Virus record (IMG/VR): IMGVR_UViG_3300010354_000388
Coordinates: 1 to 30,024 of that record
Direction: 5' to 3' (one strand)
Origin: a virus
DNA length: 30,024 nucleotides
Shown here: piece after piece, positions 3,505 through 29,839 of the stretch
How positions within the stretch are numbered: the first letter of the stretch is position 1
How the letters are laid out: each line of letters begins with the position of its first letter
Notes under the pieces: model-generated
Told to the model about the DNA's origin: nothing
Databases searched by the model: none
The model's input: the letters and a program-made list of their open reading frames with translations, nothing else
Translations under genes and position numbers: made by a program

Positions 3505-5412
3505 TCAATCCAAAGGACCAGCGAGCGTAAAGTTACTTGTCTTGGGCAAATACTTTGATTCTGGATTGTTGGATACTTTGGTGGATTTAGCCTTGGTGGA
3601 CACCAACACAGCCGGATTACTCTGCGAATACGGAGCAAGTTTAAGAACCGCACCAGTTGTGCTTATGCCTTGAATTGAGTTCAAAGACTGATGGGTGGTT
3701 GAGGAGTTTATTGTGCCCGTTATCTGTGAGACAAGAGTATTCATGTCTGTTCTGTATGTAACAACATCTTCGTACAGTTCTTTCACATATGTGGTTCCAA
3801 AATTGTTTTGTACACCATAATAATCCTCAATAACTGTATTGCCCGTGTAACCAACAACAACAATGTTGTCGTATAGATTTTTCAGGTAATCAATATTTGT
3901 CTGAACCGGCAGGAACGAAAAAGTCGTTCCAGTCCATCCACTGCTGAACAGTTTCGGGAAGTCTCCAGAGTTTCCAGAACTACCCTGCATGACTGTGATA
4001 CCAAACAGGAAATAATTCGTGTGTTGCAAAGCGTTCAGTCTTTGCTGACGGGCTGCGGTTATTCCAGTCAGTTGGGTCACGGAAGAAATCTCAAAGCACC
4101 CACCCGATTCCATCCCGAACAACCTGCCTCCAGAACCACCAGTGGCTGTGAATCCGCTGCACACTCCGCTAAACAGTGTTATACCAAGAACACTAGACTG
4201 CTCTCGCGTAATTGCTCCAACACCGAGCACAGCGGCATCCCCATTAAAATATGTGCAAGACCCTGAAACACGGCACAGCGTGTCCACAGGGAACAGCGAT
4301 GTCCCGAAAGGACCGTTCATCGACAACAGGTAAACCGTGTAGTCTCCTGCTTGGTCTGCTTCAAACGGATTTTCAGCAGTGCTACCCATAAAAGCGTAGT
4401 TTGCAAGAGCAAGCGTCACTCCGCCCATGCGGATGTGGACATCTTCAAGCCATCCCTTGAGGGGATAGTCTCCTGACGCACCGCTTCCAATCATCAGAGG
4501 TGCTGTGCTGTTCCGAATCCAGCCAGAAAGACCAGATGCGCTGTACAATGAGGTTCCGTTCCAATAAGTCTTAACGGTCGCAGATCCACCTTGTGAAGCC
4601 CAAGCAATGGCAAAGTGGTTCCACTGTCCAGTGCTTATCCCTGATGGAGACACATTCACGATTCCCTGATACCCAGCAGAAGCATAAGATGCGGCAGAGT
4701 AATGGAACTGCACTTGATCTGATGATGTGTCGTACTCAAGACGGAAAGAGTCGTTTGTGCTGCCAACCACCCCGTCCGCACTTCTGGTAACGATTATTGG
4801 ATCGTAATTGTTGCTTGGTTCTTGTTCAAAATACATCCACCCCTCAAGCAAGAAATACGGAGTAGAAGCAGATGTGGTGAAAGCGGGCAACTGTATTCCT
4901 GCTGCTTTCTGTGATGCAGTGTCATTCAGTGTTCCTGCAAATTTTGCTGCACGAGAACCAATTCCTCCGCTCTCTCCAATCGAACCTATTGAGGGCACAA
5001 ATGTGTCAAGCGTTACTCCACCAACCACATAGTTGTTCACTATTGTGGGGGTTATTGTTGACTGAAACACCGGCTCGCCCATGATAAATGTTCCGAGCAA
5101 TGCTCCACGAACAATTTGTTCTGTCAGAGGATTTATGGAAACGGAAAAAGATGATGACGGCGAAGTGGTAGGCAAAATCACTTCAGGATCAACGGTTTCG
5201 GATGAACCAGGTTCTGCCAAAATGTCTATGAATACTTGGGTTGCTCTAACCGAATCGTTCAGGGTGTATTCTACGCTCTGTCCGGACAGAGTGTCATCCA
5301 GCAGAATTGTTTTTTCCGAGTATTGAGTCGGAATGTAGTTTTCTGGATCGGTGATCGGTGTGGTCCGAACGACGGAACCATCCGAATTTAGATAAATTAG
5401 GGCTTTAGCCAT
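3505..5412 (-). CDS. Tail adhesin with LamG/concanavalin A-like domain
   Basis: This 635-aa structural protein is probably exposed on the tail. Residues about 1-150 are an unassigned N-terminal part rich in Ser/Thr, likely the attachment region. Residues about 156-345 look like a LamG / concanavalin A-like jelly roll: AAKFAG, then PYFLLEGWMYFE, SFRLEYDTSSDQVQFHYS, the hallmark TGQWNHFAIAW with a following KTYWNGT, and finally GWLEDVHIRMG. Such domains often bind glycans, which would suit a receptor-binding role. The remaining ~290 residues are unassigned; near the end there are alternating polar segments that may trimerise. It starts 11 nt after the tailspike-like gene, with a weak GAGAA Shine-Dalgarno. 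The substrate cannot be predicted. Confidence 0.75.
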   Translation of the reverse strand: MAKALIYLNSDGSVVRTTPITDPENYIPTQYSEKTILLDDTLSGQSVEYTLNDSVRATQVFIDILAEPGSSETVDPEVILPTTSPSSSFSVSINPLTEQIVRGALLGTFIMGEPVFQSTITPTIVNNYVVGGVTLDTFVPSIGSIGESGGIGSRAAKFAGTLNDTASQKAAGIQLPAFTTSASTPYFLLEGWMYFEQEPSNNYDPIIVTRSADGVVGSTNDSFRLEYDTSSDQVQFHYSAASYASAGYQGIVNVSPSGISTGQWNHFAIAWASQGGSATVKTYWNGTSLYSASGLSGWIRNSTAPLMIGSGASGDYPLKGWLEDVHIRMGGVTLALANYAFMGSTAENPFEADQAGDYTVYLLSMNGPFGTSLFPVDTLCRVSGSCTYFNGDAAVLGVGAITREQSSVLGITLFSGVCSGFTATGGSGGRLFGMESGGCFEISSVTQLTGITAARQQRLNALQHTNYFLFGITVMQGSSGNSGDFPKLFSSGWTGTTFSFLPVQTNIDYLKNLYDNIVVVGYTGNTVIEDYYGVQNNFGTTYVKELYEDVVTYRTDMNTLVSQITGTINSSTTHQSLNSIQGISTTGAVLKLAPYSQSNPAVLVSTKAKSTKVSNNPESKYLPKTSNFTLAGPLD

Positions 5413-5423
5413 GTGAGTTCTCG

Positions 5424-8400
5424 TTAAAGGCTACCGTAATAATAGGTGGATACCTGTGGACCAGGATATCCATTTACATATCCCGTGTATACAGCCGCAC
5501 CGGTGTATCCTGGCGGGTCTGCCGTGAACCCTCCCGACCGCTGCGGTCTTAGAGTGTTGAACACAGCAGGACTATACCAGTCTTCTGAAGCGGCGGGACC
5601 AAGGGTAAAACCGATACGACTCATATACAACCCATTGTTGCTTCCATTGGTAGGAGTGCTGGTGCCGTACCATCCATGCAGATTTCTCGTCTTGCCGGTT
5701 CCGGTTGGATACGCAATAAACCACATGGACGCACCACGGGGAGAGTTGTAGAGCAGTTGCTGATTGTTTGTAGCATTCGTTCCATACGGCTGTCTGGTCA
5801 TCAAACCAGGTGCTCCACTTCCCGCAAGACCCGCTTTAACCTGTGTTGTGTTCCAGAAATTCATAAGTGAACCGTATCCGTGAAGTTTGGCGTTCAAGTA
5901 CACGGAAAGTTCTGCACCCTTGGTTGTAGTATCATTAGTGGTATCAGCGTATGCCGTGCTGTCCACCCCGCCTTCGTACCCAACAATAAAGGGGTAATTG
6001 CCTTTATCATCACTGGTCAGATGCAGTTCACCGTCGTGGCTGATTCGTGGACAGTTGACCAAAGAACTGCTGTCAAACACGGTTTTTATGGTAGGTTCTG
6101 GTCCAAGAGTAGTTCCCAATCCCAGTGTGTATCCACCAAATTGTGCAGAACTTGTGATTGCGCGCCGGGCAAGTGGTGAATTTATCGACACCGCAGTTCC
6201 AGCAAATGTTAGTTTGCCCGAATAACCAACAAACACAGGATACGCACCACGCGAGTTAATCGAATCATATCCAAACAACTGACACTGCCTGGTCAACAGC
6301 GCATTGGCTGAATCAATCACTTCCATTTTGGAATTTTCAATATACAGATTTGTGTGCGCGCCGTTCATAATGTGCATTAAACTGCCTCGACCGTACCAGT
6401 TAGAAGCCGAAAGCATATAGATTTGGATGTAATTCTTTCCGCTCATGTCCAGCGTTCCGCTGTGCGTACATCTGCTGGTTCGCAGATTTATGCCGTACCC
6501 CTGAGCGTTGTAATAGTGGCTCAAGAATGTTGATGGTAGACTGTCTTTTGCCCAAGGACCGTAAATTCCGTATGAAAAGCCCATTCCCGATTTGCTGAGT
6601 GTCAAAGTAATACCTGCGGGAGTTCGGAAAAAACAACCATTTGGACCAACTGCATAGCCACCAGGCGCGGTGATTCCCTCTGCAATATCCTGATACGCAT
6701 AGAACTCCAGCGTGTTTCCTGCTGCGAAAAAGTTCTTCAGAGTGAGGTAAGAGTCGTTCTGATGCTGATTCAACATGATTCCATAAGCCAACACGGGCTG
6801 ATTTTGTATTGAAGCCAGTGTCGGGGCAGTTCCAGAAGAAACAGTTACGGTTGTACCTGCGTTGGTCCATCCTGTTTCCTCATTTGCTGGTGAAGCCACG
6901 CTTGCGAATGTTTCTCCGTTGGTGGTAACATACAGTATTCTGGCAAAGGGTGTTCTTCCGCCGCTTGGCGTTACTGAATACGCCACTATGCTTGAATAGG
7001 TTACACCTCTGCCTCCACTGTTATTCAACACGCTCGGGTGCAAGAACATGGCTGTTGCGCCACCGAAAACCGTTGCACCGGAAAACACCGGAAGGGTCAA
7101 AGACAATCTTACACCACCTGGCAGAGCACCGTAATTATGCACGGCGGTGGACGGCAAGTTTATTTCACTTTGATTTGCGATGATTCCACTGTGACCGTTC
7201 CAAGGAGATGTTTGTATCCATATGTTGAACAAGCCATACAACAACGACCGGGGCACAAGAGCGGTGCTTGCGTCAAAACTTTCAAGCAAAGAAATCTTTG
7301 AGCCAGCATCACAGTGTATGCCACCGCCGTTCGTGGTCAAAAATATTGGGGTGTTGTACAATCGACCCAACTCAGCATAAGTATTGGGGGTTCCAGCCAG
7401 TTGCGCTCCCTGCCTGTTGTAATAAGAGTCTTCTTCAAACACTAGGTCTGCACCCAGTTCAGAACCGTCAGTAATCATTATTGCGGCGGAGTTGGTGACC
7501 GTTCCCCAACCAACCATTCCTAGATTTCGTATCTTTACTTTTGCGCCGTTCAGCAGCATCATTCCAGCAAACGAACGGGTTCTGTTGTCGTATATTGCGG
7601 TTCCGGCAGCAGTGTCCATCATGTGACACGGTGCAAGAGTTTGACCATTGGGCAACCGCGAATACGATATGCCTTCTATGTCGCCGTTGACCAGCATGAT
7701 ATTGCGTATTGCCCCCACTCGTCCACCGTCAATCAAGAACGGAACAGGTTTTTGCTGATAACCGTCACCTGTGGCTGACTGTGCGTACACCTTGATGACC
7801 ACAGGGAAATTCGTTAGTACATGGGGGTCGTCAGTGATGTGAACATCGCCTGACTCACGATCCGGATAACTAAGACTCACACCACCAGGAATCACTGAAG
7901 TGGGTGGATACACACCATAAGTTACTGCACCATTGTCGTTTCCCCATGTGGTCCCTACAAGTGTGCAGTTGTCCAAAACCCCTAGCGTGGGACCGTAGTA
8001 TCCATTTGGTTCACTGTACTGAGGCTCAGGATAGTTGTTTGGTATAATTACCGTACCAGAACCAATAAAAGACAGAGTGTTGTCCAGTCCCCCGTTTACT
8101 TTTCCGTTGAGTGTTGTGCCCGGATACACTGCAATACGAGCGTCCAGGTTCAGGTTCTTGAACTGCAAACGAAGATCGTTTGAATTTGCACTGGCATTTT
8201 CTATGCGTGCAATACCCTGTATTCCCTTTGCTTCCTCATATGAAAGCCCGTGATTCAGATGTGAACGGAACCACGGTGAACCAGAAGACATACTGTATCT
8301 GCCATTGGTGTAGATTCCGTTGTATAAGTCAGTATAACTTCTGTTGCACGGCGTGCTTTGAGCAGCGTTAACGATGGACACATAGCCCATTTCGTCCTGT

Positions 8401-8945
8401 GCACTGAAACCGTGAGCGGTTGTTCCTGTTCCGTTTGGATACGAAGAAGAAGTCAAGCCGAGCGCGTGCTGTCCGTACCACAGGTTCACGGTGCCGGTGT
8501 GCCCGTAGTACGCCAAACGAGACAAGTCCCATGCGTAGTCTTTTACTCGGTACAGGTAACGCTGCCGTATGGCTTCAAGGTCGCCCTGAATAATGATGCG
8601 CTCGCCCTGTGGGTGGTACAGGTTGTCGGGGAACGGGTTTGTGCCAGCCCGATCATTGAAATCGAATGTGTACCCGTAGATGCCCTTCTGAAACTGAATG
8701 TACATACGGGCATTGCCCTGTATGATGTACTCCTGTGCCTTCTGCCATGCCTTGCGTAGCGTGGCATACGGACGAGAAAACGATCCGTCACCGGTGCTGT
8801 CGCTTCCGAATGTGGCTCCTGTCCACGATCCTGCTGACCCTGTTTTGCCCATCGGGTGATTGGGCGGGGCAATGTAGATATAGGTGTCCGTATCAATGAT
8901 ACGGGTGGACGGGGTGTTGGGAATTGGTAGGTGTGAGTATGGCAT
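5424..8945 (-). CDS. Tailspike-like beta-helix protein
   Basis: This 1173-aa protein has a short N-terminal arm (residues 1-35). It is followed by a pectate-lyase/tailspike-type entry motif: GSAGSWTGATFG around 36-47, then GDGSFSRPYATLRKAWQKAQ at 52-71 and a MYIQFQKGIYGY strand. HPQGERIIIQGD follows near 112-123. The long central part is a series of short hydrophobic strands, Gly/Asn turns and 'IRNL', 'IYIEN' type rungs, consistent with a right-handed beta-helix. This suggests a trimeric spike that binds or cleaves surface polysaccharide. No catalytic residues can be assigned by eye. The last ~30 residues are Gly/Tyr/Pro-rich. The ATG has no clear Shine-Dalgarno but sits 6 nt after a late-promoter-like box. 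Confidence 0.72.
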   Translation of the reverse strand: MPYSHLPIPNTPSTRIIDTDTYIYIAPPNHPMGKTGSAGSWTGATFGSDSTGDGSFSRPYATLRKAWQKAQEYIIQGNARMYIQFQKGIYGYTFDFNDRAGTNPFPDNLYHPQGERIIIQGDLEAIRQRYLYRVKDYAWDLSRLAYYGHTGTVNLWYGQHALGLTSSSYPNGTGTTAHGFSAQDEMGYVSIVNAAQSTPCNRSYTDLYNGIYTNGRYSMSSGSPWFRSHLNHGLSYEEAKGIQGIARIENASANSNDLRLQFKNLNLDARIAVYPGTTLNGKVNGGLDNTLSFIGSGTVIIPNNYPEPQYSEPNGYYGPTLGVLDNCTLVGTTWGNDNGAVTYGVYPPTSVIPGGVSLSYPDRESGDVHITDDPHVLTNFPVVIKVYAQSATGDGYQQKPVPFLIDGGRVGAIRNIMLVNGDIEGISYSRLPNGQTLAPCHMMDTAAGTAIYDNRTRSFAGMMLLNGAKVKIRNLGMVGWGTVTNSAAIMITDGSELGADLVFEEDSYYNRQGAQLAGTPNTYAELGRLYNTPIFLTTNGGGIHCDAGSKISLLESFDASTALVPRSLLYGLFNIWIQTSPWNGHSGIIANQSEINLPSTAVHNYGALPGGVRLSLTLPVFSGATVFGGATAMFLHPSVLNNSGGRGVTYSSIVAYSVTPSGGRTPFARILYVTTNGETFASVASPANEETGWTNAGTTVTVSSGTAPTLASIQNQPVLAYGIMLNQHQNDSYLTLKNFFAAGNTLEFYAYQDIAEGITAPGGYAVGPNGCFFRTPAGITLTLSKSGMGFSYGIYGPWAKDSLPSTFLSHYYNAQGYGINLRTSRCTHSGTLDMSGKNYIQIYMLSASNWYGRGSLMHIMNGAHTNLYIENSKMEVIDSANALLTRQCQLFGYDSINSRGAYPVFVGYSGKLTFAGTAVSINSPLARRAITSSAQFGGYTLGLGTTLGPEPTIKTVFDSSSLVNCPRISHDGELHLTSDDKGNYPFIVGYEGGVDSTAYADTTNDTTTKGAELSVYLNAKLHGYGSLMNFWNTTQVKAGLAGSGAPGLMTRQPYGTNATNNQQLLYNSPRGASMWFIAYPTGTGKTRNLHGWYGTSTPTNGSNNGLYMSRIGFTLGPAASEDWYSPAVFNTLRPQRSGGFTADPPGYTGAAVYTGYVNGYPGPQVSTYYYGSL

Positions 8946-11451: not shown

Positions 11452-14400
11452 TCAACAAATTCTGACGATACTATAAGACATTCCGAGATTTGCACCACCA
11501 ACCACTGAGATGGTTCCGCCGAACATATGCTTAATGACTCCTTTTACGGTAGCGGTGGGGGAGGTGACCCACATAATAAATGGAACCATTTCGTATACTT
11601 CTGGAGAATAGAGGTCGGAATTGTGTTTTGATCCACTCGCATTAAAATTGAAGTGGATGTTTTTTCCAGGAAATGTTTGCACTGCCAAAGTTCCAGACAC
11701 TGCTTGTATCCCTACTCTTCCGTAATAAGCAGCACTCGCTCTGAAATTGGTGGAGTATGTAATGTTGTTGTACGGCTGCACGAAATACACCCCGCGCGGA
11801 ATAGTTACGCTATATGAACTGTAAACAGCAGTGAGATCGGTAAAGTCTCCTGTGTATACTGTGGTTCCGCTCAAACTGTCGGTCCACCCTCTAGTTGTAT
11901 CGGTGGCGGGAGAATTTGTGTTTATTTTTACAGAATAGACAGTACCTCCAGATATCAGATCCGTGTCCCACTCTACGGTTCCGTTAGTGGCTGACGCAAC
12001 CAACCGATCACCGATGGCTGGTGCACCGCCGCCGTATATCGTGGTGGTTCCGGTCACTTCAAGGTCTGTGGTCTTGATCTTTCCGTTTACATCAAGAGTT
12101 GTGGTTGGATTGTGCTTGTTTATGCCGATATTTACCGTTGTGCCATTGTAATTCATCAGCATACCGACTTGCTGACCACCCGCTGCTGCCCACGGACCAA
12201 GACCGAACGCTTGAGTTACCCCGCCGCCGCCCTGCTTGCCGAAGATCAGGTAAGCACCACCACCGTATTGGTTGACGCCGTTGTAATCTCCAGTCTGACC
12301 ACTTGCGTTCATAAGTATGAAGTTGCCGTCCGTTGCTTTCATGTATATTTGAGGACGGGGACTTGTGTTGGTGTCACCCTGTATCAAAAGACGAGGCTTA
12401 TGTGTCGCCAGACTCGCAATATCAGTTGTGGTTCCGATGTTTACTGCGTGGGCAAAAGAGGCGGTGAATCCTGTTATGGTGAAAACATCGGACATGGACA
12501 CCGTGTCTCCGAGATTGCCCGCAGAATCGTTTGCGATGCCCCACCGCAGCATAGGGGAAGTTCCACTGACACCCAACACAAAAACAGATCGGTCAAGTGT
12601 TCCATTCAGACTGCTCATGTATCCGACTGCACCGACTCGTGGGCGCACTCCGCGTCCTATCACCAAGTTTGCATCAGAATAATCCGTTCCAATCACTATG
12701 CGAGAAGCAATGGTTACTCCGTTGATGGTGTCGGTATCATTCCTAACTGTTATGAGGTCTTGCCCCTGCGGTGTGCCTGCAAGGGTTTTTCCGAGTCTCA
12801 AGTCTCCATTCACATCTAGTTGTGCCATTATTCGGGCTGAACCAGCCGCTGCATCGGTGATGTATCGACTCCATCCTCCACCGATACCAACCAGTGTCCC
12901 TGTTCTTCCACGAGTATCAGAATAGTATGTGGTTCCTGCTGCTACACGAATGGACTCTTTTCCGTATTGATTGCCGTCATAGTGACCAATCACCAAATCT
13001 CCGCTGAAACCGTCGCGGATGTCAGTAACCAAGAAACGAGTCACATCAGCAGAAGCACCTGTTATGCCAACTTCTGCGCGAATGTCTCCACGATACGAGA
13101 ACAGGTATCCTGACTTTGGTCCTGTAGCCATGAAAAGCGGCTTGCGTATGCGACCAAATGCAACAGGAGGATTCAGCGTTTGACAAGCAGCACCGGACTC
13201 GAAAGAACCTGTTGAACCAGCGCAGCCGGTGTTCAAAAAATACACGGAGCCAGCATTAAGCGCAAAAGTTGATCCAGCAGAAGACAGGTCAAAGAAACCG
13301 TCCATGAGAACATCAAAGCCGGTATAGGTTTTGTAACCTGATTCTCCGGTTTCTCCTGCAAATCCAACCACCATGCCAGCCACTTCTGCTTCTTCTTCAG
13401 AGTCAGCCTGTGCCTTTACGAAAATTCCGTAATCGTGATACTCTGCGTATGTGTTACCGCTGGAATTGTAAATGTACGACAGTGTTACACCCGGCGAATA
13501 CGGCTTGAAGCGCACCATATCGCCCAACGAGAATTTGTTTGCTTGATTTATTCTGGTGGAAACAGAGGTGGCGTTAGACAACACCAGTGGACTTGAGAGA
13601 ACTCCTCCAGTAAAAGGCAGCACCACGCCTGATGTGGCTGAAGTGGCAATCAGGACAGCCTTGTGCACGACTCCCGAAGCGGTCGGTTGACTGCTTGTCA
13701 AGTTTCCTGCCACATACGGAGACAGGTAATATGTTGTGCCTGGAATGAGCGGCTGACCATCGTTTATGGGGGTGAAGTCCCCGAATATCTCTCCCAAGAA
13801 TGTGAGTTCAAAATCGTGGCTTCCAATCACCTTTGACACCAAACCAACCACTTCTGCGTTTTGACCGTCTGTTGCTATGGCTGATGCGTATGTTGCGCCA
13901 TTCAAGCGCACAGGCATTCCAAACTGAAGTCCGTGAGAGATTTGACGGACTGTTTTTCGGTTTGCGCCGTCCTTGATGTTCATAAACGGACGAGCACCGT
14001 AAGTGGCTCCGCTTAAAACCTCTGCAAAAACTGTTGCACCAGCGGGATAGTAACGAGAAAACTCAATGGAGCGATTCGATGTTGTTCCATTGATATCGTT
14101 TACGGTGAACATGAGTCCGTGCGCGGATGTGATGCCGCCATTAAACTCCAATCCGTATCCATGAATGATCAGATTGCCGTTGTTGTAAGGAATGATTCCG
14201 TATGTGTCACCATCAAATCCAATGTGTGCATTACCCTTCCAAGTTCCAGTCAATCCAGCCACTTGAGTGGGAGTCCACAACCACTCTGCGGTGGCTCCAC
14301 TGCTGCCGCGGTCAATAAGCAGACCGCCGCCGCCTGCGGCTGTGATCTTGCTGTCGTCTGATCCCGCTGCGGTGTTGCCAAGCACGATTGCGTAGTCGTC

Positions 14401-14721
14401 AATGGTGACAATGCTTGCATTAACGGTGAAAGTGTCTGCATTGAATGTGACTGGACCGTTGAATGTGACACCGCTGCTGAAGTTGACGGGTTGCAGGAAT
14501 GTAATGCCTTTGTTCACATTGGTGCGAATGTCTGCCGTGAAAACACCAGAAGCAGAAATGCCAACATCAATAGAATCAGAACTGATACCATCGTATATCC
14601 GCATTTTGTTGAGTTTGTAGGTCTGCGTGTTTGTGGTATCACGCCACACATTGAATGTGTCACCCAACTCAACATTGTCGATCTGATAGGTATTTTCGTC
14701 TGGTCCGGTGCTTGCTGCCAT
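11452..14721 (-). CDS. Large modular tail fibre with two copies of the shared domain
   Basis: This 1089-aa protein has a fibre-like N-terminus (residues 1-165) with a VTFNGPVTFNADTFTVNAS strand repeat, then IDDYAIVLGN and a GGGGLLIDRG segment. That arrangement is common in fibres of T4-like environmental phages. Residues about 257-373 and 389-546 are two copies of the domain also found in the following gene. Later there is a VNIGINKHNPTTTLDVNGKI motif, typical of fibre stems. The last ~140 residues (VTIPRGVYFVQPY ... MFGGTISVVGG ... SIVRIC) resemble a C1q/TNF-type jelly roll, but weakly. I see no S74 self-cleaving chaperone at the end. The start follows the 63-aa gene by 3 nt, and a late-promoter-like box lies 65 nt upstream. 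A 52-nt gap with nothing recognised separates it from the next fibre. Confidence 0.78.
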   Translation of the reverse strand: MAASTGPDENTYQIDNVELGDTFNVWRDTTNTQTYKLNKMRIYDGISSDSIDVGISASGVFTADIRTNVNKGITFLQPVNFSSGVTFNGPVTFNADTFTVNASIVTIDDYAIVLGNTAAGSDDSKITAAGGGGLLIDRGSSGATAEWLWTPTQVAGLTGTWKGNAHIGFDGDTYGIIPYNNGNLIIHGYGLEFNGGITSAHGLMFTVNDINGTTSNRSIEFSRYYPAGATVFAEVLSGATYGARPFMNIKDGANRKTVRQISHGLQFGMPVRLNGATYASAIATDGQNAEVVGLVSKVIGSHDFELTFLGEIFGDFTPINDGQPLIPGTTYYLSPYVAGNLTSSQPTASGVVHKAVLIATSATSGVVLPFTGGVLSSPLVLSNATSVSTRINQANKFSLGDMVRFKPYSPGVTLSYIYNSSGNTYAEYHDYGIFVKAQADSEEEAEVAGMVVGFAGETGESGYKTYTGFDVLMDGFFDLSSAGSTFALNAGSVYFLNTGCAGSTGSFESGAACQTLNPPVAFGRIRKPLFMATGPKSGYLFSYRGDIRAEVGITGASADVTRFLVTDIRDGFSGDLVIGHYDGNQYGKESIRVAAGTTYYSDTRGRTGTLVGIGGGWSRYITDAAAGSARIMAQLDVNGDLRLGKTLAGTPQGQDLITVRNDTDTINGVTIASRIVIGTDYSDANLVIGRGVRPRVGAVGYMSSLNGTLDRSVFVLGVSGTSPMLRWGIANDSAGNLGDTVSMSDVFTITGFTASFAHAVNIGTTTDIASLATHKPRLLIQGDTNTSPRPQIYMKATDGNFILMNASGQTGDYNGVNQYGGGAYLIFGKQGGGGVTQAFGLGPWAAAGGQQVGMLMNYNGTTVNIGINKHNPTTTLDVNGKIKTTDLEVTGTTTIYGGGAPAIGDRLVASATNGTVEWDTDLISGGTVYSVKINTNSPATDTTRGWTDSLSGTTVYTGDFTDLTAVYSSYSVTIPRGVYFVQPYNNITYSTNFRASAAYYGRVGIQAVSGTLAVQTFPGKNIHFNFNASGSKHNSDLYSPEVYEMVPFIMWVTSPTATVKGVIKHMFGGTISVVGGANLGMSYSIVRIC

Positions 14722-22502: not shown

Positions 22503-25500
22503 TTATATGCCTATGTTAGAGTATGTATCTCCCGACAGGACGGTTCCATCGGACAACACAGTGCCCTCCGATTTGTAAACCGCATACGGTAATGACACAA
22601 AATTGGAAAGTGTTATCCCATCAAAACAAATTCCTTCAGGTATTGTGGTGATTGTTCTTGAATTTGGGTGATGGTCTATCACCCAATAAGTGGTGCCAGC
22701 AATATACGAACTATTGTGTGATGAGTAATACGAGTCAGGTAATTTTTGGTCCATTTTGTATTTACGCGATATGTACCCGTAGATTTTCTGCCGTTCCGCC
22801 TCTGTCAATTTACGGTCGAACACCAAAACCTCGTATAGAACACCCATGAAGTTGTACGGCGTATTGGTTTTCAAATCTTCTATCCAAGCAGTAGAGCCAA
22901 ACGGTTCACTGCTAACAGCAGTTGGTCGAATGTACCCTCCACCAAACTCACCAAACGAGAAAGACAAACCGCTTGTAGCCGGATATCGCATCTGTGTGGA
23001 TGGAGATGTTGGCAGAGAACAGAATATTCCAGTGGAAGGAGACTGATTGACTCCCTCTACACCATTCAAGTAACACGCCAATCGGTCAGATGTGTCCCTG
23101 CTCACTTCTGCCACAACAGAACCCATGCTTGCGCCCGATATGTGCGGATCGTAAGAAACAGACCGCAAATCGCTGCTGGTGCGAGACAGGGTTTCCCACT
23201 GATCTGCCCACGGATTGAAATTCACCGCACCTGCATACCAAGGATAGAATCTAGTGTTGTCAATTGTGTTGTATGTGTAGGACGATGGGTTTCTGTCAGC
23301 CAAATTCCAACTCTGCACATTCATAACCAATCCATTCACATACGACCAATCATAAAAGTGCAGTTGCTTTCCACTTCCAACAAAACCCAATCCGTGAGAA
23401 AGACTATCGGTGGCGTTTCTGTACACAAAAAACGCATCCATGTCTTCTGTGAATTGTATGGGAGTCTTAAATCTAATATGCCTGCCTGTGAGTATCTGCT
23501 CACCGCTGCTGCCAGGACCAAATGTTATTCCATCGGCTGTGTAACCATATCCTATGGTAAACAGATCCGCAGAAGTTGATGTTAGTCTGGCTGTTGTTTG
23601 CGGACCGAACAGAACTCCGCCATTGAAAGATATTCCTGTTGCTCCCACGATTCCATTATCGTTTATGACAAGAGTGGGGCGCAGTTTGTCTATGGTGACT
23701 CCTGCGTATTTGTCTACCTGCATACCGCTGGTTGCGGTAAAAGACGGAATCACATTTGAACCGTGATACGAAAGTTCTGTTATGGTCACAGAATGTCCAA
23801 CCGAACCAAGTGAATCTCCGTAGAAACTAGAGTCAAAGTAGAATGTCTTTTCGTATCCCGCAAAGACGCGGCGGAATTCTTCTCCGTCTTTTCGATATAC
23901 AATGTCTGGTTCCAAATACTCTACTTCAAACACAGAATTGTCGTATGCCGCGTTGTCGAGAGTCGAATAAGTTGTTCCCTTATTGACGCCACTTTCGTAA
24001 ACAACAACCAATCGTGAGTTTGTACTCCCACCATATGATCCAAACAAGTATATGGCGTAGTCTAGTCCGTCAAAACTAGGATTGGACAATCCAGAAGACT
24101 GATTCAAGCCGAGCATCATCAGTCTTCCGCTTGTAAATCCTCCACAAAGACCGTTCGGCACAAATGAAACTTTGGTGACTGGATTGGCACTGTCGTACAC
24201 CTGCATGGTCCAGCCAAAAGATACTCCGGTTTTTGTTAGGTGCGCCACCCCATTCCACTTGTCCCACATTGGAGGATAAGCGTGGTTGCCTTTGGGAGAA
24301 GAATCCGTCCACACATCCATGCTTGCGCCGTTTGCAACAGCACCGCAAACACCAATATTTTCCGGTTTCAACCACAGCACAAGACCATCTATATTAGATG
24401 GATTGAATGTTGTTTCTTGACCAAGATACCACGAAACAGTTCCACCAAGAGGCGCACCGATGGGATTGTGTGCCGTGCGTCCACCTTCAGGAACATAGCA
24501 CCAAGTGTATCCAAGACTGCTGCCCACGAAAACCGTTCCCAAAGATGTTGTGCTGCCGTTTGGACCTACCTGTGCGGTGTTACCAATGTACGGATTGTAC
24601 CCAAGCGGATACAGATCGCCGGTTGAACCCAACCAATAGCCAGCAAGTGTAACACCATTGTTTCGCAGATTCAGTGTTGTTCCTGGCGTATACGGAGTGT
24701 ATTTTCCTATGACCGGACTTTCATAGAATGTTGCCTGTGCAGCGGAGGACGCCGCGTTTTCAAGTGATTTTTTGACAAGAATAGAACCAAACATTCTAGT
24801 TCCTGAAGGGTGTATGAGTTTCCTCAACACCTCGAAGTAATTGTCAAACGAAACCTCAGACTTCAATTCATATGAAAAGTCCTGATAGTAGTTCCCATCA
24901 GGTATCTTTTTCGTGGACGATATTTTTCCGCGATTTCCAGAAAAATAGCCAGGATAATTGGTGATCGCTGATCGCAAACCAATAACCCGCGCAGACCGAT
25001 TTTCACCGAAAGTGTTCAACACCACATCAGCACCGTAATTCAGTCCAGAATTTATGATACTGATTTTCTTGATGCCTCCAGCCAAATCTGTTTGCTCAAT
25101 CTTTCCTGAAAACCCCATCCCACGAGCATCAATCACCGTGACAGAATCACCGATTTTGTATTTTTCACCAGGAATATCAACAAAAAACTGACCCAAAACG
25201 GAGTACGCGGTTTCTCTGTATTCGGTGTTTTCTTTGACAACCCGAACCTCTCGGTCAGGCACAAACGGAACGCCTGATATTTCGCTAATAAAAAATTCTG
25301 TGACAGGAAATCCAGAGAACGAATACTGCACAACAGAATCAATGAATGCACTGGCAACAATGGTCGAACCACTGTACTGAACCAACTGCCCACCAACTCC
25401 GTTAAACAGATCGGCTCCATTCACACTGGTTGTTTTCACAGAGCGTGGTTCAATCCATTTGCCATCAGATGTTTTCAGTATGTCTGTTTTTGGGTAGTAA

Positions 25501-25910
25501 ATCTCAAGATCGCTGTCATACAAAACTCGAAACAAAAATCTATACGCGCTTTCCGTTCCCTTGTTGCCGTAAAAATCCCGTATTTTCTTCAGTATGGTCT
25601 TTCTATTGGGTTTGAAACCGGTTGTATTTGTGGCAAGTGCTATAGGCAGTGACTGAATGTATGTGTTCTCAAAGTGTGAAAGAAACTGATCAAGATTCCT
25701 GTCAATATCAAACGCCGTGTCAAGGTGCGATGTAACAAAGGATGCGTTTCCGTTTTGGTCACACCACTCGTAATACGCTTTGATAAACAGTATGAGTTTT
25801 CCATAGTCACTACGCATGAAAGAAGGAAACTGCTCCTTGATGAAAGGAGACAGTATGTTCTCAAGTTCTTCTTCTTTAGTATTGAGAATGATGTTTGTTA
25901 TGGCGTCCAT
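22503..25910 (-). CDS. 7: Baseplate wedge gp7 homologue fused to LamG-like domains
   Basis: This is 1135 aa from the ATG at 25910. That start is preferred because it lies one base after the gene 6 stop with GGGG 5 nt upstream; an upstream GTG at 25961 would overlap gene 6 by 50 nt and has no Shine-Dalgarno. Residues about 18-55 (ILSPFIKEQFPSFMRSDYGK, then FIKAYYEW) and 112-139 (DFYGNKGTESAYRFLFRVLY) match, from memory, the C-terminal third of T4 gp7, which has DFYSTKGIEASYKFLFKVLY. VLRKLIHPSGTRMFGSI at 361-377 likewise resembles a T4 gp7 segment. T4's large N-terminal part is missing. From about residue 509 (GLVLWLKPENI ... WTDSSPKGNHA) the rest looks like one or more LamG/concanavalin A-like domains, which suggests a baseplate protein with a carbohydrate-binding extension. 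Confidence 0.82.
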   Translation of the reverse strand: MDAITNIILNTKEEELENILSPFIKEQFPSFMRSDYGKLILFIKAYYEWCDQNGNASFVTSHLDTAFDIDRNLDQFLSHFENTYIQSLPIALATNTTGFKPNRKTILKKIRDFYGNKGTESAYRFLFRVLYDSDLEIYYPKTDILKTSDGKWIEPRSVKTTSVNGADLFNGVGGQLVQYSGSTIVASAFIDSVVQYSFSGFPVTEFFISEISGVPFVPDREVRVVKENTEYRETAYSVLGQFFVDIPGEKYKIGDSVTVIDARGMGFSGKIEQTDLAGGIKKISIINSGLNYGADVVLNTFGENRSARVIGLRSAITNYPGYFSGNRGKISSTKKIPDGNYYQDFSYELKSEVSFDNYFEVLRKLIHPSGTRMFGSILVKKSLENAASSAAQATFYESPVIGKYTPYTPGTTLNLRNNGVTLAGYWLGSTGDLYPLGYNPYIGNTAQVGPNGSTTSLGTVFVGSSLGYTWCYVPEGGRTAHNPIGAPLGGTVSWYLGQETTFNPSNIDGLVLWLKPENIGVCGAVANGASMDVWTDSSPKGNHAYPPMWDKWNGVAHLTKTGVSFGWTMQVYDSANPVTKVSFVPNGLCGGFTSGRLMMLGLNQSSGLSNPSFDGLDYAIYLFGSYGGSTNSRLVVVYESGVNKGTTYSTLDNAAYDNSVFEVEYLEPDIVYRKDGEEFRRVFAGYEKTFYFDSSFYGDSLGSVGHSVTITELSYHGSNVIPSFTATSGMQVDKYAGVTIDKLRPTLVINDNGIVGATGISFNGGVLFGPQTTARLTSTSADLFTIGYGYTADGITFGPGSSGEQILTGRHIRFKTPIQFTEDMDAFFVYRNATDSLSHGLGFVGSGKQLHFYDWSYVNGLVMNVQSWNLADRNPSSYTYNTIDNTRFYPWYAGAVNFNPWADQWETLSRTSSDLRSVSYDPHISGASMGSVVAEVSRDTSDRLACYLNGVEGVNQSPSTGIFCSLPTSPSTQMRYPATSGLSFSFGEFGGGYIRPTAVSSEPFGSTAWIEDLKTNTPYNFMGVLYEVLVFDRKLTEAERQKIYGYISRKYKMDQKLPDSYYSSHNSSYIAGTTYWVIDHHPNSRTITTIPEGICFDGITLSNFVSLPYAVYKSEGTVLSDGTVLSGDTYSNIGI

Positions 25911-25911
25911 A

Positions 25912-27741
25912 TCAACCCCGTATGGACTGCTTGCGGTTGGTTTGTGTCTGCAAAGACACACGGACAGAATCTGCGTATCCGCGATTTACACGGAGTATCT
26001 TGTTCTCAAAAACGAATATGTCGTCGTTCTTTGGTTGAACAGTAATGGTGAACAGAGAGTTACTTGAAACTGGAGCAAAGTTACTTTTGAAGTTGACCAC
26101 TCCCTTTTCGTAATCAACGGTTCCAATTTTCTCGTAAATCATTACCCGTCTGCCTTTTTCATCGGTTGTTATGAGGTTGATGTTTCCATAGCCATCATCA
26201 ATCGCACTGACATCAGAAATCAATGTTCCGCTGTTGTCTATATGGGCGAATGTGCTGCTGCCAAGAATCGGCTCTTGATCCTGTGAGTAACCATCGTACT
26301 CGTGTTTGAACGGATTCTTGAATTCCAAGGCAATTCCTTTTGCGGCAAGGAGTTTGCTGGTGTTTACAGTCTTTCTCAACAAGATGTTTGTTTCGTTTCC
26401 GAGTATGGATGTATCAAGGCTGTTTATGCCCTGCACCAATTTGGAAAGGTACATATTTGAACTGAATGCTTCCAAAAATGTAGAAGAGTGGGTATAAATG
26501 TACGCTACTATGAGGGACTTTATCGTGCCCGCTCCGTAACTTGTGATAGAAGAATCAAATGTCACAAGAGAATCCACCACAATGTCAACATAGTCTGCAT
26601 CCACTATCTCTGGAGTGACAGTGACAATCGACCTATTTTTACGAAGTTTTTCTTCAAGACCAACTTTGTCGGCAACCGACAGTGCTGATCCTGACTTTGG
26701 CTTGATTGCTATGAACACCTTGCCGTATTGAGGTGGAGTGATAGTTTCTCCACCGTAAACATACACCGAATCGGCGTTTGGATACTCTTTCATAACAGCG
26801 GATGTGTAGTCGTTTTCAGTGACCGCACGGGACTGTGACTGATAGTAACGAGGAGCCAAGAACTTGATGCGATTTACGCTTTCGGGAAGAGAACCGCCCG
26901 CAGAGGGACTAATCACAGTGATTGCACCCAAACCGTTTACTGCTGATGTGAAATCTTCTATTCCGTTTGCGACATCTCCATTGGTTTCAAGATACTCAAT
27001 GATTACCACATTTCCTGCCGCTGGTTGCTTTCCAAGAAAGTTGTCCCCGAAGAACAGTTCGTACATTCCGTATTCTTTCTCTTGCAAGAAGAACACCTTT
27101 GATGTTGGGGTCAAGTCTATGTACGATTCCGCATATGTCCACTTGTCCTCTATTCCCGTATTGTCTGTAGCAGAAGCCTTTACCCGAACCCGTATGGATG
27201 TGGTGTCTATCTTGTTGTTGGGAATCAGGAACACCGAACTGGTCTTTCGCGCAGGATCGTAGACATAACTCATTCGGCGCAGAGTGCCTTCGTGTACTTC
27301 TATTTCAGAAAACTCATCGTCTTGACTATTTGCGTAAGCGGTGTCAAGTAGGACAAAACGATATTGTGTTCCGCCAAGATCGGTTCCGATGAATTCCGAT
27401 CCGCGAGTCAAATATGTGCTGTCTGAAGCACCAGGAGCAGCAACTGTGAGAACCGCCTTTGCAGCGCGGTGAGAAGACGGGACATATCCCAGAGCCTTGG
27501 CATGGGACACCACGGACGGACGGATCACAGCACTGTCCAAGAACATCTCATTAGCCACCATGTTGGCATAAAAAGCCTGATAGTGGGTGTTGTACGCAAG
27601 AACATCAAGAATGGTGGACAACACGGAGCCGTCAAAGTTGTAGTCCTTGAGAGTGTCCTGTGACTCCAAAAACGCCTTCAGAGAAGCCTTGGCTTCATCA
27701 AAGTCCAGCCCTATGATGTTGAAACTGTTCTTGTTAGCCAT
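25912..27741 (-). CDS. 6: Baseplate wedge subunit gp6
   Basis: This 609-aa protein is near T4 gp6 (660 aa). gp6 dimers form the continuous ring that holds baseplate wedges together around the hub. The N-terminal segment DYNFDGSVLSTILDVLAYNT at about 38-57, followed by SAVIRPSVVSHAKALGYVPS, matches the T4 gp6 stretch I recall (DYDFEGS ... LLAYNT ... RSSVVQAA ... GYLPTS). The middle has the baseplate J-type pattern: FFGDNFLGKQP, VVIIEYLETNGDVANG, RAVTENDYTSAVMKEYP and VFIAIKPKSG. The start overlaps the gene 25 stop by one base (TGATG). Together with gp25 and gp7 this is the standard wedge set. Confidence 0.93.
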   Translation of the reverse strand: MANKNSFNIIGLDFDEAKASLKAFLESQDTLKDYNFDGSVLSTILDVLAYNTHYQAFYANMVANEMFLDSAVIRPSVVSHAKALGYVPSSHRAAKAVLTVAAPGASDSTYLTRGSEFIGTDLGGTQYRFVLLDTAYANSQDDEFSEIEVHEGTLRRMSYVYDPARKTSSVFLIPNNKIDTTSIRVRVKASATDNTGIEDKWTYAESYIDLTPTSKVFFLQEKEYGMYELFFGDNFLGKQPAAGNVVIIEYLETNGDVANGIEDFTSAVNGLGAITVISPSAGGSLPESVNRIKFLAPRYYQSQSRAVTENDYTSAVMKEYPNADSVYVYGGETITPPQYGKVFIAIKPKSGSALSVADKVGLEEKLRKNRSIVTVTPEIVDADYVDIVVDSLVTFDSSITSYGAGTIKSLIVAYIYTHSSTFLEAFSSNMYLSKLVQGINSLDTSILGNETNILLRKTVNTSKLLAAKGIALEFKNPFKHEYDGYSQDQEPILGSSTFAHIDNSGTLISDVSAIDDGYGNINLITTDEKGRRVMIYEKIGTVDYEKGVVNFKSNFAPVSSNSLFTITVQPKNDDIFVFENKILRVNRGYADSVRVSLQTQTNRKQSIRG

Positions 27742-28148
27742 CAGCGTACCCTTTCTAAGACGACAGTGACGCGATCTATTTTTCCGAGCGGTCTTATGGA
27801 GTACTCCACATTCACCGTGTAACTGTTTTCGTTTGGTTGAGCAATCACATCAACAAGCACACGGGAAACGCGAGGCTCGTGTCGTGCTATGGTGTTCAAT
27901 ATACGATCACGAATTTCCATCGTGGTTATGGCATCAATGGGTTCAAACAACAACGGACGGAGCGAACCGCCGATGTGTGGCTGAAACAGGCGTTCACCAA
28001 AAGCCGTAGCCAACAGATTCCGCAAGGATGTCCTGATTGCAGAGTCGTCACGAACAGTCAACAGGTCGCCAGTCTTTGGACTGCGCGTGAACAACGGATC
28101 AATGTCCGTGTAGATGGGTTTCTGTCCTGCCGCTATGCGAACACTCAT
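27741..28148 (-). CDS. 25: Baseplate wedge subunit gp25 (lysozyme-like fold family)
   Basis: This 135-aa protein is almost the same length as T4 gp25 (132 aa). gp25 sits at the inner end of the wedge, holds gp6 and gp53, and resembles the first sheath ring, where contraction starts. The pattern DIDPLFTRSPKTGDLLTVRD, then IRTSLRNLLATAFGERLFQP, GGSLRPLLFEPID, and ARHEPRVSRVLVDV is diagnostic, including the 'EPR' core motif at about 90-92. It overlaps the preceding gene by 4 nt (ATGA) and the following gene 6 by 1 nt. An AGGAAG Shine-Dalgarno lies a few bases upstream. Confidence 0.95.
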   Translation of the reverse strand: MSVRIAAGQKPIYTDIDPLFTRSPKTGDLLTVRDDSAIRTSLRNLLATAFGERLFQPHIGGSLRPLLFEPIDAITTMEIRDRILNTIARHEPRVSRVLVDVIAQPNENSYTVNVEYSIRPLGKIDRVTVVLERVR

Positions 28149-28816
28149 TGCTTCCTGCCTGCCTTGAACCAGAAATACGAGTTAATGTTGCGAACGCTGT
28201 CCCCGATCAACTGCTCCAGTGCCGTCTGCGCGATTCCCTCTTTTTCAATCTCGTCCAGTTTGTCTGCCGAACACCAGTGGCAGCACACAAATCCCATCGG
28301 GGTGAGGCTGTCAGAGCATTGCAAAGGAGAAACGCTGAAGTACTCCACGCTATTTATCTCAAGTCCCGAACGAAACGATGACGGGGCAAGGCTGCTTACA
28401 GGAAGAATTTTGTGTGGTGCGTCTTTCATGGTCTGCACCAGTTCAATGTATCGGGTAAGCAGCACATCCTGCGATTCAAGAATCATGCTGGTCACCCCTG
28501 CCTCACATGATTCGTGAGTCACCGAAAACCGCTTGATGGACACCCCGTCCGCAAAAGAACCGCCGTTATGGAACTGAAACACCAAGCAACGAGAAGCACG
28601 CACCATGACCCGCAGTTCCGTTAACTGCTCGTGGATTCGGCTGTGTTTCTCTACGAAAGTTCTCTCTTTTGAAGTATTCCACTTTAGGTTGATTTTTCGC
28701 TTACGCACAGCACCAACCACACCGATCAGCACCCCGATCAGGAGACTGCCAGCAATTTCTCCAAACGACAACACGAACTGCTTGATGCTGTCCAAGTTTT
28801 GAAATATGCTGCTCAT
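28145..28816 (-). CDS. Membrane-anchored protein with GAF-like domain
   Basis: This 223-aa protein has an N-terminal hydrophobic segment at about 19-37 (GEIAGSLLIGVLIGVVGAV) followed at once by the basic stretch RKRK, so it probably spans the inner membrane once with its C-terminal part in the cytoplasm. Residues about 64-215 look like a GAF/PAS-type sensor fold: a helix (ELRVMVRASR), the strand LVFQFHNGG, a variable middle, then SVEYFSVSPL and TPMGFVCCHWCSAD followed by a final helix. Cysteines at about 104, 167, 178, 179 and 182 are notable. The gene overlaps both neighbours by 4 nt, so it is firmly in the baseplate operon. I do not know its role: virion part, membrane-acting factor or superinfection control are all possible. 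Confidence 0.72.
   Translation of the reverse strand: MSSIFQNLDSIKQFVLSFGEIAGSLLIGVLIGVVGAVRKRKINLKWNTSKERTFVEKHSRIHEQLTELRVMVRASRCLVFQFHNGGSFADGVSIKRFSVTHESCEAGVTSMILESQDVLLTRYIELVQTMKDAPHKILPVSSLAPSSFRSGLEINSVEYFSVSPLQCSDSLTPMGFVCCHWCSADKLDEIEKEGIAQTALEQLIGDSVRNINSYFWFKAGRKQ
28351..28358 (-). promoter_or_regulatory. Possible late-promoter-like box before gene 25
   Basis: The minus-strand octamer GATAAATA is the same as the box at 14787, but the bases after it (GCGTGG) do not match the CTCTGAA or C-rich context of the other boxes. It lies inside the GAF-like gene, about 200 nt before gene 25. It may be a chance match produced by the codons for EIN. Confidence 0.2.
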
Positions 28817-29568
28817 CGGGTGCTGGTTCCTCCCTGTGGTGTGGCGTTGGCGGTAGCCACTTGATAAAATTCCGGACTGATAAGACTGGCATTTACTGCT
28901 GCCCCCAGTTTAAAGCACGAGTCTTCGTTTGACAGATTCACCAGATTAAACAGTCCGTTGATGCTTGTATATTTCTGAACGAAATCAAGAGCCTGTTTTT
29001 GAGCCTGTTGTGTTTTGGCAACCACATCATTGATGGCTGCGTTTGCTTGATTAAGAGCGTCACCAGCAGCGTTCAATCCGTTTATAATGTCGTTAGACAA
29101 AGCGGTTGCCCCTGACGGTATTTGCTTCAAGATACTGCTCAACTGTATTTGTGCATTTAGTCCCACTTGCAACGACATCTGCCCGTCCCGCTGAACAACA
29201 CCCAGTCCTGCCGTGACATCAAGACCGGGAATACCCAAAGCACAGGTCAAATCCGCGTACAGCCCCATAGAACTAATGGTACGCAACAGGTTTTGTGGGT
29301 CTGTGAGTTTATTACACTCCCCTACAAATTTGGTTAAAGACTCGTCAGCCTTGTCAAGTGTAGTTAGCGCATTGTTCAGAGAAGTAATAGTACCGGGCAA
29401 CGCAGCACCAGTCAACCTGTTTGACTTTATCAGTCCATCCATCGCATTTATTGCTGCTTGATTGGGATTTTGCAGTATGTTGACAACATCATTCAACCCA
29501 AAGTTGATGACATCTTTCTCGTTTTCTGATAGTTTTTGCTTGCATGGACACGGTGCTTCTTCTGCCAT
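28813..29568 (-). CDS. Hypothetical structural protein, 251 aa
   Basis: The preferred start is the ATG at 29568 (MAEEAPCPCKQKLSENE). It lies 4 nt after the PAAR gene stop with GGGG 7 nt upstream; the longer open frame beginning at 29706 only reads through the PAAR gene in another frame. I do not recognise the family. The protein is mainly helical, with repeated polar/Ala-rich heptads (for example ALNQANAAINDVVAKTQQAQ near 190-210). It has a CPC pair at residues 7-9 and three further isolated cysteines. The LTCALGIPGLDVTAG segment near the middle may be a beta region. Its position directly after PAAR, in the same operon and overlapping the membrane/GAF gene by 4 nt, suggests a spike- or hub-associated protein. 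Confidence 0.7.
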   Translation of the reverse strand: MAEEAPCPCKQKLSENEKDVINFGLNDVVNILQNPNQAAINAMDGLIKSNRLTGAALPGTITSLNNALTTLDKADESLTKFVGECNKLTDPQNLLRTISSMGLYADLTCALGIPGLDVTAGLGVVQRDGQMSLQVGLNAQIQLSSILKQIPSGATALSNDIINGLNAAGDALNQANAAINDVVAKTQQAQKQALDFVQKYTSINGLFNLVNLSNEDSCFKLGAAVNASLISPEFYQVATANATPQGGTSTR

Positions 29569-29572
29569 ATGA

Positions 29573-29839
29573 TTACCCCACGAAAAAAGTGTTTGATCCT
29601 GTTGGCGGATGCCCGCAACTGGCTTGACTTGCCATTGTGCACACCGGAATGCCACCCAATACAAAACTCGGAACCCCCTGCACCATGATGGCATTGTCGT
29701 GCTCATTGTTGCCGTGATCTTCCACAGGATTCCCCTCCACGCTCACCGGAAACCCGTCCACGAAAAAGTACGGATTGCCCACAAGAATGAGTCCCCCCGC
29801 TGTGTCAATGTTGGCTCTGCACACTCCTAATCCTGGCAT
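29573..29839 (-). CDS. PAAR-domain tail spike tip protein
   Basis: This 88-aa protein spans almost only one PAAR fold. It is Gly/Pro/Val-rich with short strands: GNPYFFVDGFPVSVEGNPVE, then IMVQGVPSFVLGGIPV, ending GSNTFFVG. His42, His47, Cys67, Cys75 and His77 could supply the zinc or iron site that PAAR tips use. In T4 the small protein gp5.4 (about 97 aa) has this role: it caps the gp5 beta-helix needle and forms the sharp tip that contacts the membrane. The position a few genes before gene 6 is like that of 5.4 in T4. A CGGAGTAA Shine-Dalgarno lies just upstream of the ATG, and the gene starts 12 nt after the stop of the preceding small gene. Confidence 0.85.
   Translation of the reverse strand: MPGLGVCRANIDTAGGLILVGNPYFFVDGFPVSVEGNPVEDHGNNEHDNAIMVQGVPSFVLGGIPVCTMASQASCGHPPTGSNTFFVG

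Follow-up and report, generated by a model that had tools for sequence, protein, structure and literature searches.

The protein described here joins a single predicted membrane helix to a GAF domain (hence TM-GAF) and is encoded in the baseplate operon of a T4-like myovirus. We consider the chances evenly balanced that it is a late inner-membrane controller of lysis, resembling the T4 holin T in architecture and inverted in topology. The gene order of its relatives makes lysis control the likeliest form of a late action at the membrane. The original prediction had offered two roles for this protein, either at the host membrane during late infection or in the virion with an action on entry; the first of these fits the findings best, and lysis control as its form is proposed here.

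The window, i.e. the entire 30,024-base virus record that was analysed, encodes the tail and baseplate of a T4-like myovirus, with sheath stabiliser, head closure, gp8-like, gp7-like, gp6, gp25 and PAAR proteins recognised through Pfam and PHROG. As had been predicted, the TM-GAF reading frame is embedded in the baseplate operon, where the order is PAAR, a hypothetical protein, TM-GAF, gene 25, gene 6 and further wedge subunits, and it overlaps its neighbours by 4 nt on each side, its start with the end of the upstream frame (28813-28816) and its stop with the start of gene 25 (28145-28148). The frame, for which no strand had been named, lies on the minus strand and is a real gene rather than a chance one, because a single scan of IMG/VR returned 70 relatives at 50-100% identity. 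The overlaps suggest that TM-GAF would be co-translated with the late structural genes, as also proposed originally. The features are collected in Table 1.

Table 1. Position and basis of the TM-GAF gene, its parts and its neighbours in the window.
Feature	Position	Strand	Basis
TM-GAF gene, 223 aa	28145..28816	minus	ORF; 4-nt overlaps on both sides; 70 homologues
Shine-Dalgarno-like GGGAGG	28829..28834	minus	Sequence; 12-14 nt before the TM-GAF ATG
Predicted transmembrane helix, residues 15-37	28706..28774	minus	Hydropathy, topology, conservation, model helix 2-72
Predicted GAF domain, residues 59-223	28148..28642	minus	AF2 pLDDT 89.5; Foldseek PDB 1.2e-7; VIA Z 16.3
beta1-beta2 hairpin, residues 76-104 (FQFHNGG...SVTHE)	28505..28591	minus	16/29 positions invariant in the family
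CCHWC, residues 178-182	28271..28285	minus	At a beta strand of the model (173-181)
Gene 25, baseplate wedge, downstream neighbour	27741..28148	minus	Pfam GPW_gp25 1.9e-14; PHROG 261
Gene 6, baseplate wedge	25912..27741	minus	Pfam Gp6-like_1st 8.1e-18; PHROG 219
Hypothetical protein, upstream neighbour	28813..29568	minus	Start by homology at MAEEAPCPCKQ; conserved in synteny
PAAR spike-tip protein	29573..29839	minus	Pfam PAAR_motif 3e-7

Several other reading frames deserve comment. The upstream hypothetical gene, listed as 28813-29706, starts too early in that form; its homologues in L006 and L027 begin M..CPCKQKL, which places the true start near 29568, right after the PAAR gene. The gp7-like wedge gene (22503-25961, 1152 aa) has its best wedge PHROG stretches within about the first 410 residues, and the rest of the protein may be an inserted adhesin-like part. 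Three long late frames of 635, 1173 and 1089 aa (3505-8945 and 11452-14721), with no PHROG match, are probably fibre or adhesin genes. In two related contigs (L289, 2757-4001; L297, 2778-4001) the gene 25 frame is about three times its usual length, which suggests a fusion or extension.

Scanning with gene 6 yielded 78 tabulated contigs, 73 of them informative in that they included enough upstream sequence. TM-GAF immediately precedes gene 25 in 62 of these 73, often with overlaps, and the pairing persists down to 36% gene 6 identity; the gene was single-copy in each of three large genomes checked. A baseplate wedge subunit would be expected in every phage with this gene set, whereas 11 informative contigs lack TM-GAF although genes 25 and 6 are both present. 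These contigs are more distant, all at or below 40% gene 6 identity, and in several the upstream gene runs directly into gene 25. Because of this absence, TM-GAF is to be regarded as an accessory late gene and not as an obligatory part of the baseplate, in keeping with the initial impression that such a protein is not expected of a baseplate component.

The single strong transmembrane segment and basic stop that had been reported are present: residues 15-33 form the only hydrophobic stretch (Kyte-Doolittle 2.06) and are followed by RKRK, and hydropathy and topology calculations both support the proposed membrane anchoring. Within the helix E20, G28 and G32 are invariant and G19 and G23 nearly so, and conservation is higher in the helix than on either side of it, a pattern that would suit oligomerisation. 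In the window clade, in most of its divergent marine relatives and in the Mel-JY01 group, there are 4-10 Lys/Arg among the first 20 residues that follow the helix and 0-1 among those that precede it. By the positive-inside rule, this charge bias predicts that the GAF domain is cytoplasmic, which was also the original assignment.

An AlphaFold model built from 27 close sequences was weak (pLDDT 62) yet already GAF-like, and the model from 35 more diverse sequences reached pLDDT 89.5, with a continuous helix over residues 2-72 followed by the GAF domain. Foldseek against the PDB returned cyanobacteriochrome and phytochrome GAF domains (E 1.2e-7), VIA gave 2.5 A over 144 residues, and nearly all the PDB structure matches listed were GAF, so that the fold named in the original prediction proved right. 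The sequence itself matched no Pfam family up to E 10, the GAF profile included, and NCBIfam and PADLOC searches gave nothing useful; in a PDB sequence search one family alignment returned chance rows only, while another had a cyanobacterial GAF protein as its best hit (E 0.0095). Both motifs noted earlier were located. FQFHNGG (residues 80-86, with H83, N84, G85 and G86 invariant in 27 family members) belongs to the FQFHNGG...SVTHE hairpin, the most conserved part of the protein, and C178, C179, W181 and C182 of the CCHWC cluster are invariant in the same 27. Metal binding by the CCHWC cluster was set aside, as the cluster maps to a beta strand and relatives outside the window clade do not conserve it.

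More distant relatives were sought with a profile of the window clade only and with a wider profile built without the gut-phage members, with negative controls in the set. The window-clade profile matched Mel-JY01 (2e-12), LE1 (2e-10), MaMV (4e-10) and cr127_1 (7e-9), and more weakly L204 (1e-6), P12024S (9e-6) and Arash (2.8e-3), while BS-TP1-type proteins were matched by the profile without gut phages (1e-6 to 1e-8); neither profile had a significant match to T4 T or to the negative controls. No bacterial or prophage relatives were found in two scans of genome contigs, and the GAP32 and RaK2 members listed in BFVD were not placed by a family profile. Four unannotated PHROGs (14038, 30125, 38864 and 29276) are relatives or counterparts of the window protein, with gene neighbourhoods that differ from that of the window gene.

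The survey of neighbours in other phages, which had been suggested at the outset, put endolysins beside TM-GAF in several of these profile-related groups. In the Leptospira phage LE1, TM-GAF is immediately upstream of an M23 endolysin with a 4-nt overlap; in the Nonlabens phage P12024S the endolysin follows directly; in the Polaribacter phage P12002L (L320), for which BFVD lists a structural match of matching length, a TM-GAF-like gene at 26905-27528 precedes an M15 endolysin; and in the crAss-like L204 a CHAP endolysin, itself a weak match, lies directly downstream. Among the BS-TP1-type gut contigs, a partly redundant set, the endolysin starts between -3 and +25 nt after TM-GAF in 19 of 22, and about 790 nt later in two, while the last contig stops too early. 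These gut endolysins are Amidase_3, GH108 or M15 enzymes, often with Rz-like or lipoprotein genes after them, and no further small TM gene was noticed upstream within the lysis cassettes of L303, L304, L312 and L316. The position of TM-GAF is thus kept while the endolysin family changes, as expected of a holin slot. Elsewhere the gene lies between gp23 and PhoH (the Microcystis phage Mel-JY01), adjoins a tail ring protein gene (cr127_1) or is among structural genes (Arash). Just upstream of the lysis cassettes of L303 (786-1820) and L304 (3587-4585), a frame that by eye resembles a reverse transcriptase may belong to a diversity-generating element.

Set against lysis control is the fact that late genes cluster anyway, which makes a chance adjacency more likely, and that small two-TM holin candidates apart from TM-GAF occur in P12024S, L098, L204, L313 and Mel-JY01. 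The one in L313 (2980-3270), a 96-aa protein directly before TM-GAF, could be a separate holin. In the T4-like clade itself TM-GAF adjoins no lysis gene, and no endolysin was located there with PF01510, PF00959, PF13539 or PF05838, the last of which was silent in control genomes too and is therefore uninformative; PF00182 matched only in Mel-type records. A listing of TM frames in two genomes (G001 and G002) was too noisy to single out a holin. The T holin family PF11031 had no match in any of 14 related records, which favours a role for TM-GAF in lysis.

If TM-GAF does control lysis, each chain would contribute a single membrane helix near the N-terminus, running without a break into a bridge helix, and a GAF domain for regulation. 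The Gly/Glu-containing helices may form oligomers in the membrane, and the GAF domain, on the predicted cytoplasmic side, would hold or release the assembly depending on a bound ligand or partner, and by this release would set the time of endolysin exit. A bolder version can be envisioned, in which the family is a widespread and undescribed type of holin or lysis timer with a single inverted TM helix, whose GAF domain in the cytoplasm would sense a metabolite or nucleotide and tie the moment of lysis to the state of the host, in T4-like phages of freshwater and marine origin as well as in gut, Leptospira and flavobacterial phages; taken together, this proposal and its range are doubtful. Our literature search found no paper that connects phage holins with GAF domains. 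Since it occupies the holin slot elsewhere, this conserved single-TM GAF family would be a direct candidate for lysis timing in the related T4-like environmental phages, and lysis timing would then be tied to a ligand-sensing domain.

The strongest competitor, which we regard as rather unlikely, is a sensor or shield that works late at the inner membrane and has no part in lysis: its GAF domain would recognise a signal of the host or of a defence system, such as a nucleotide, or the protein would exclude superinfecting phages. Binding of small ligands is frequent among GAF domains, the HNGG...S..THE hairpin varies very little, the domain is predicted to be cytoplasmic in the T4-like members, and the P12002L member has a weak match to a SieA-like PHROG for superinfection exclusion (E 0.0014). 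However, that likeness is weak and restricted to this one member, PADLOC offered no convincing match, and a sensor or shield would leave the holin-slot position of the relatives unexplained.

That the protein is carried in the virion, within or close to the baseplate, and goes into the host membrane when the phage enters, seems improbable. This part of the original prediction draws some support from the place of the gene within the baseplate operon and from gp232 of the Salmonella phage Arash, a distant relative (E 1.5e-11 to the wider profile) annotated as a structural protein. Like the window protein, gp232 has a TM segment and the homologous domain, although with HDGK where the window family has HNGG, and is encoded in a late operon, flanked by structural genes; it was detected in purified virions with 100% coverage, 9 unique peptides and 172 spectra (PMC10585845), an observation that also counts against lysis control. 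On the other hand, the Arash virion list comprises 116 proteins, including many enzymes, metabolic ones among them (PMC10585845), and a membrane protein can co-purify. The charge bias of gp232 is the reverse of that in the window protein, and the 11 T4-like contigs without TM-GAF keep the neighbouring baseplate genes. Least probable is an ordinary structural part of the baseplate or tail assembly with a chance hydrophobic helix, for which the strict place before gene 25 would speak, but which is contradicted by those same 11 contigs, by the other genomic places of the gene (gp23/PhoH, lysis cassettes) and by the TM helix with its basic stop in nearly all complete members.

Two further known systems can be compared with TM-GAF. 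The GAF sensors, i.e. cyanobacteriochromes, phytochromes and the PDE GAF domains, have the same fold as its residues 59-223, but the window protein has no Pfam GAF match and no output domain, and identity is about 10-16%. The second is the T4 holin T (class III, PF11031; PDB 6pxe, 6px4 and 6psk). It is described as consisting of a short helix at the N-terminus, a single TM, a bridge helix and a globular domain that takes part in regulation, a domain structure unique among holins (PMC12162936). T is of similar length, about 220 aa, the model of the window protein suggests the same succession of N-terminal TM, long bridge helix and C-terminal globular domain, and T4 t is likewise a late gene that does not adjoin the endolysin gene. 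The BFVD matches of the model include a class III holin of Proteus phage Stubb (5.7e-5), the T holin of Serratia phage PS2 (4.3e-4) and the holin of phiP4-3 (9.4e-4), while no solved T chains were among the PDB structure matches listed. With hhalign, 128 columns of the broad family profile aligned co-linearly with the C-terminal domain of T (P 0.002) and scored higher than each of 60 column shuffles, and narrower profiles failed. HMM searches between the family and T were negative in both directions and the window protein matched neither PF11031 nor the T profiles, so membership in PF11031 was rejected by sequence. T holins are N-in/C-out (PMC9636201), whereas the C-terminus is predicted to be inside here, and T has neither the Lys/Arg bias seen around the TM of the window clade nor the HNGG hairpin. 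The topology thus speaks against membership, and the findings support a likeness to T in the way of working, which, if TM-GAF does time lysis, would provide a fold-level context for the T4 holin.
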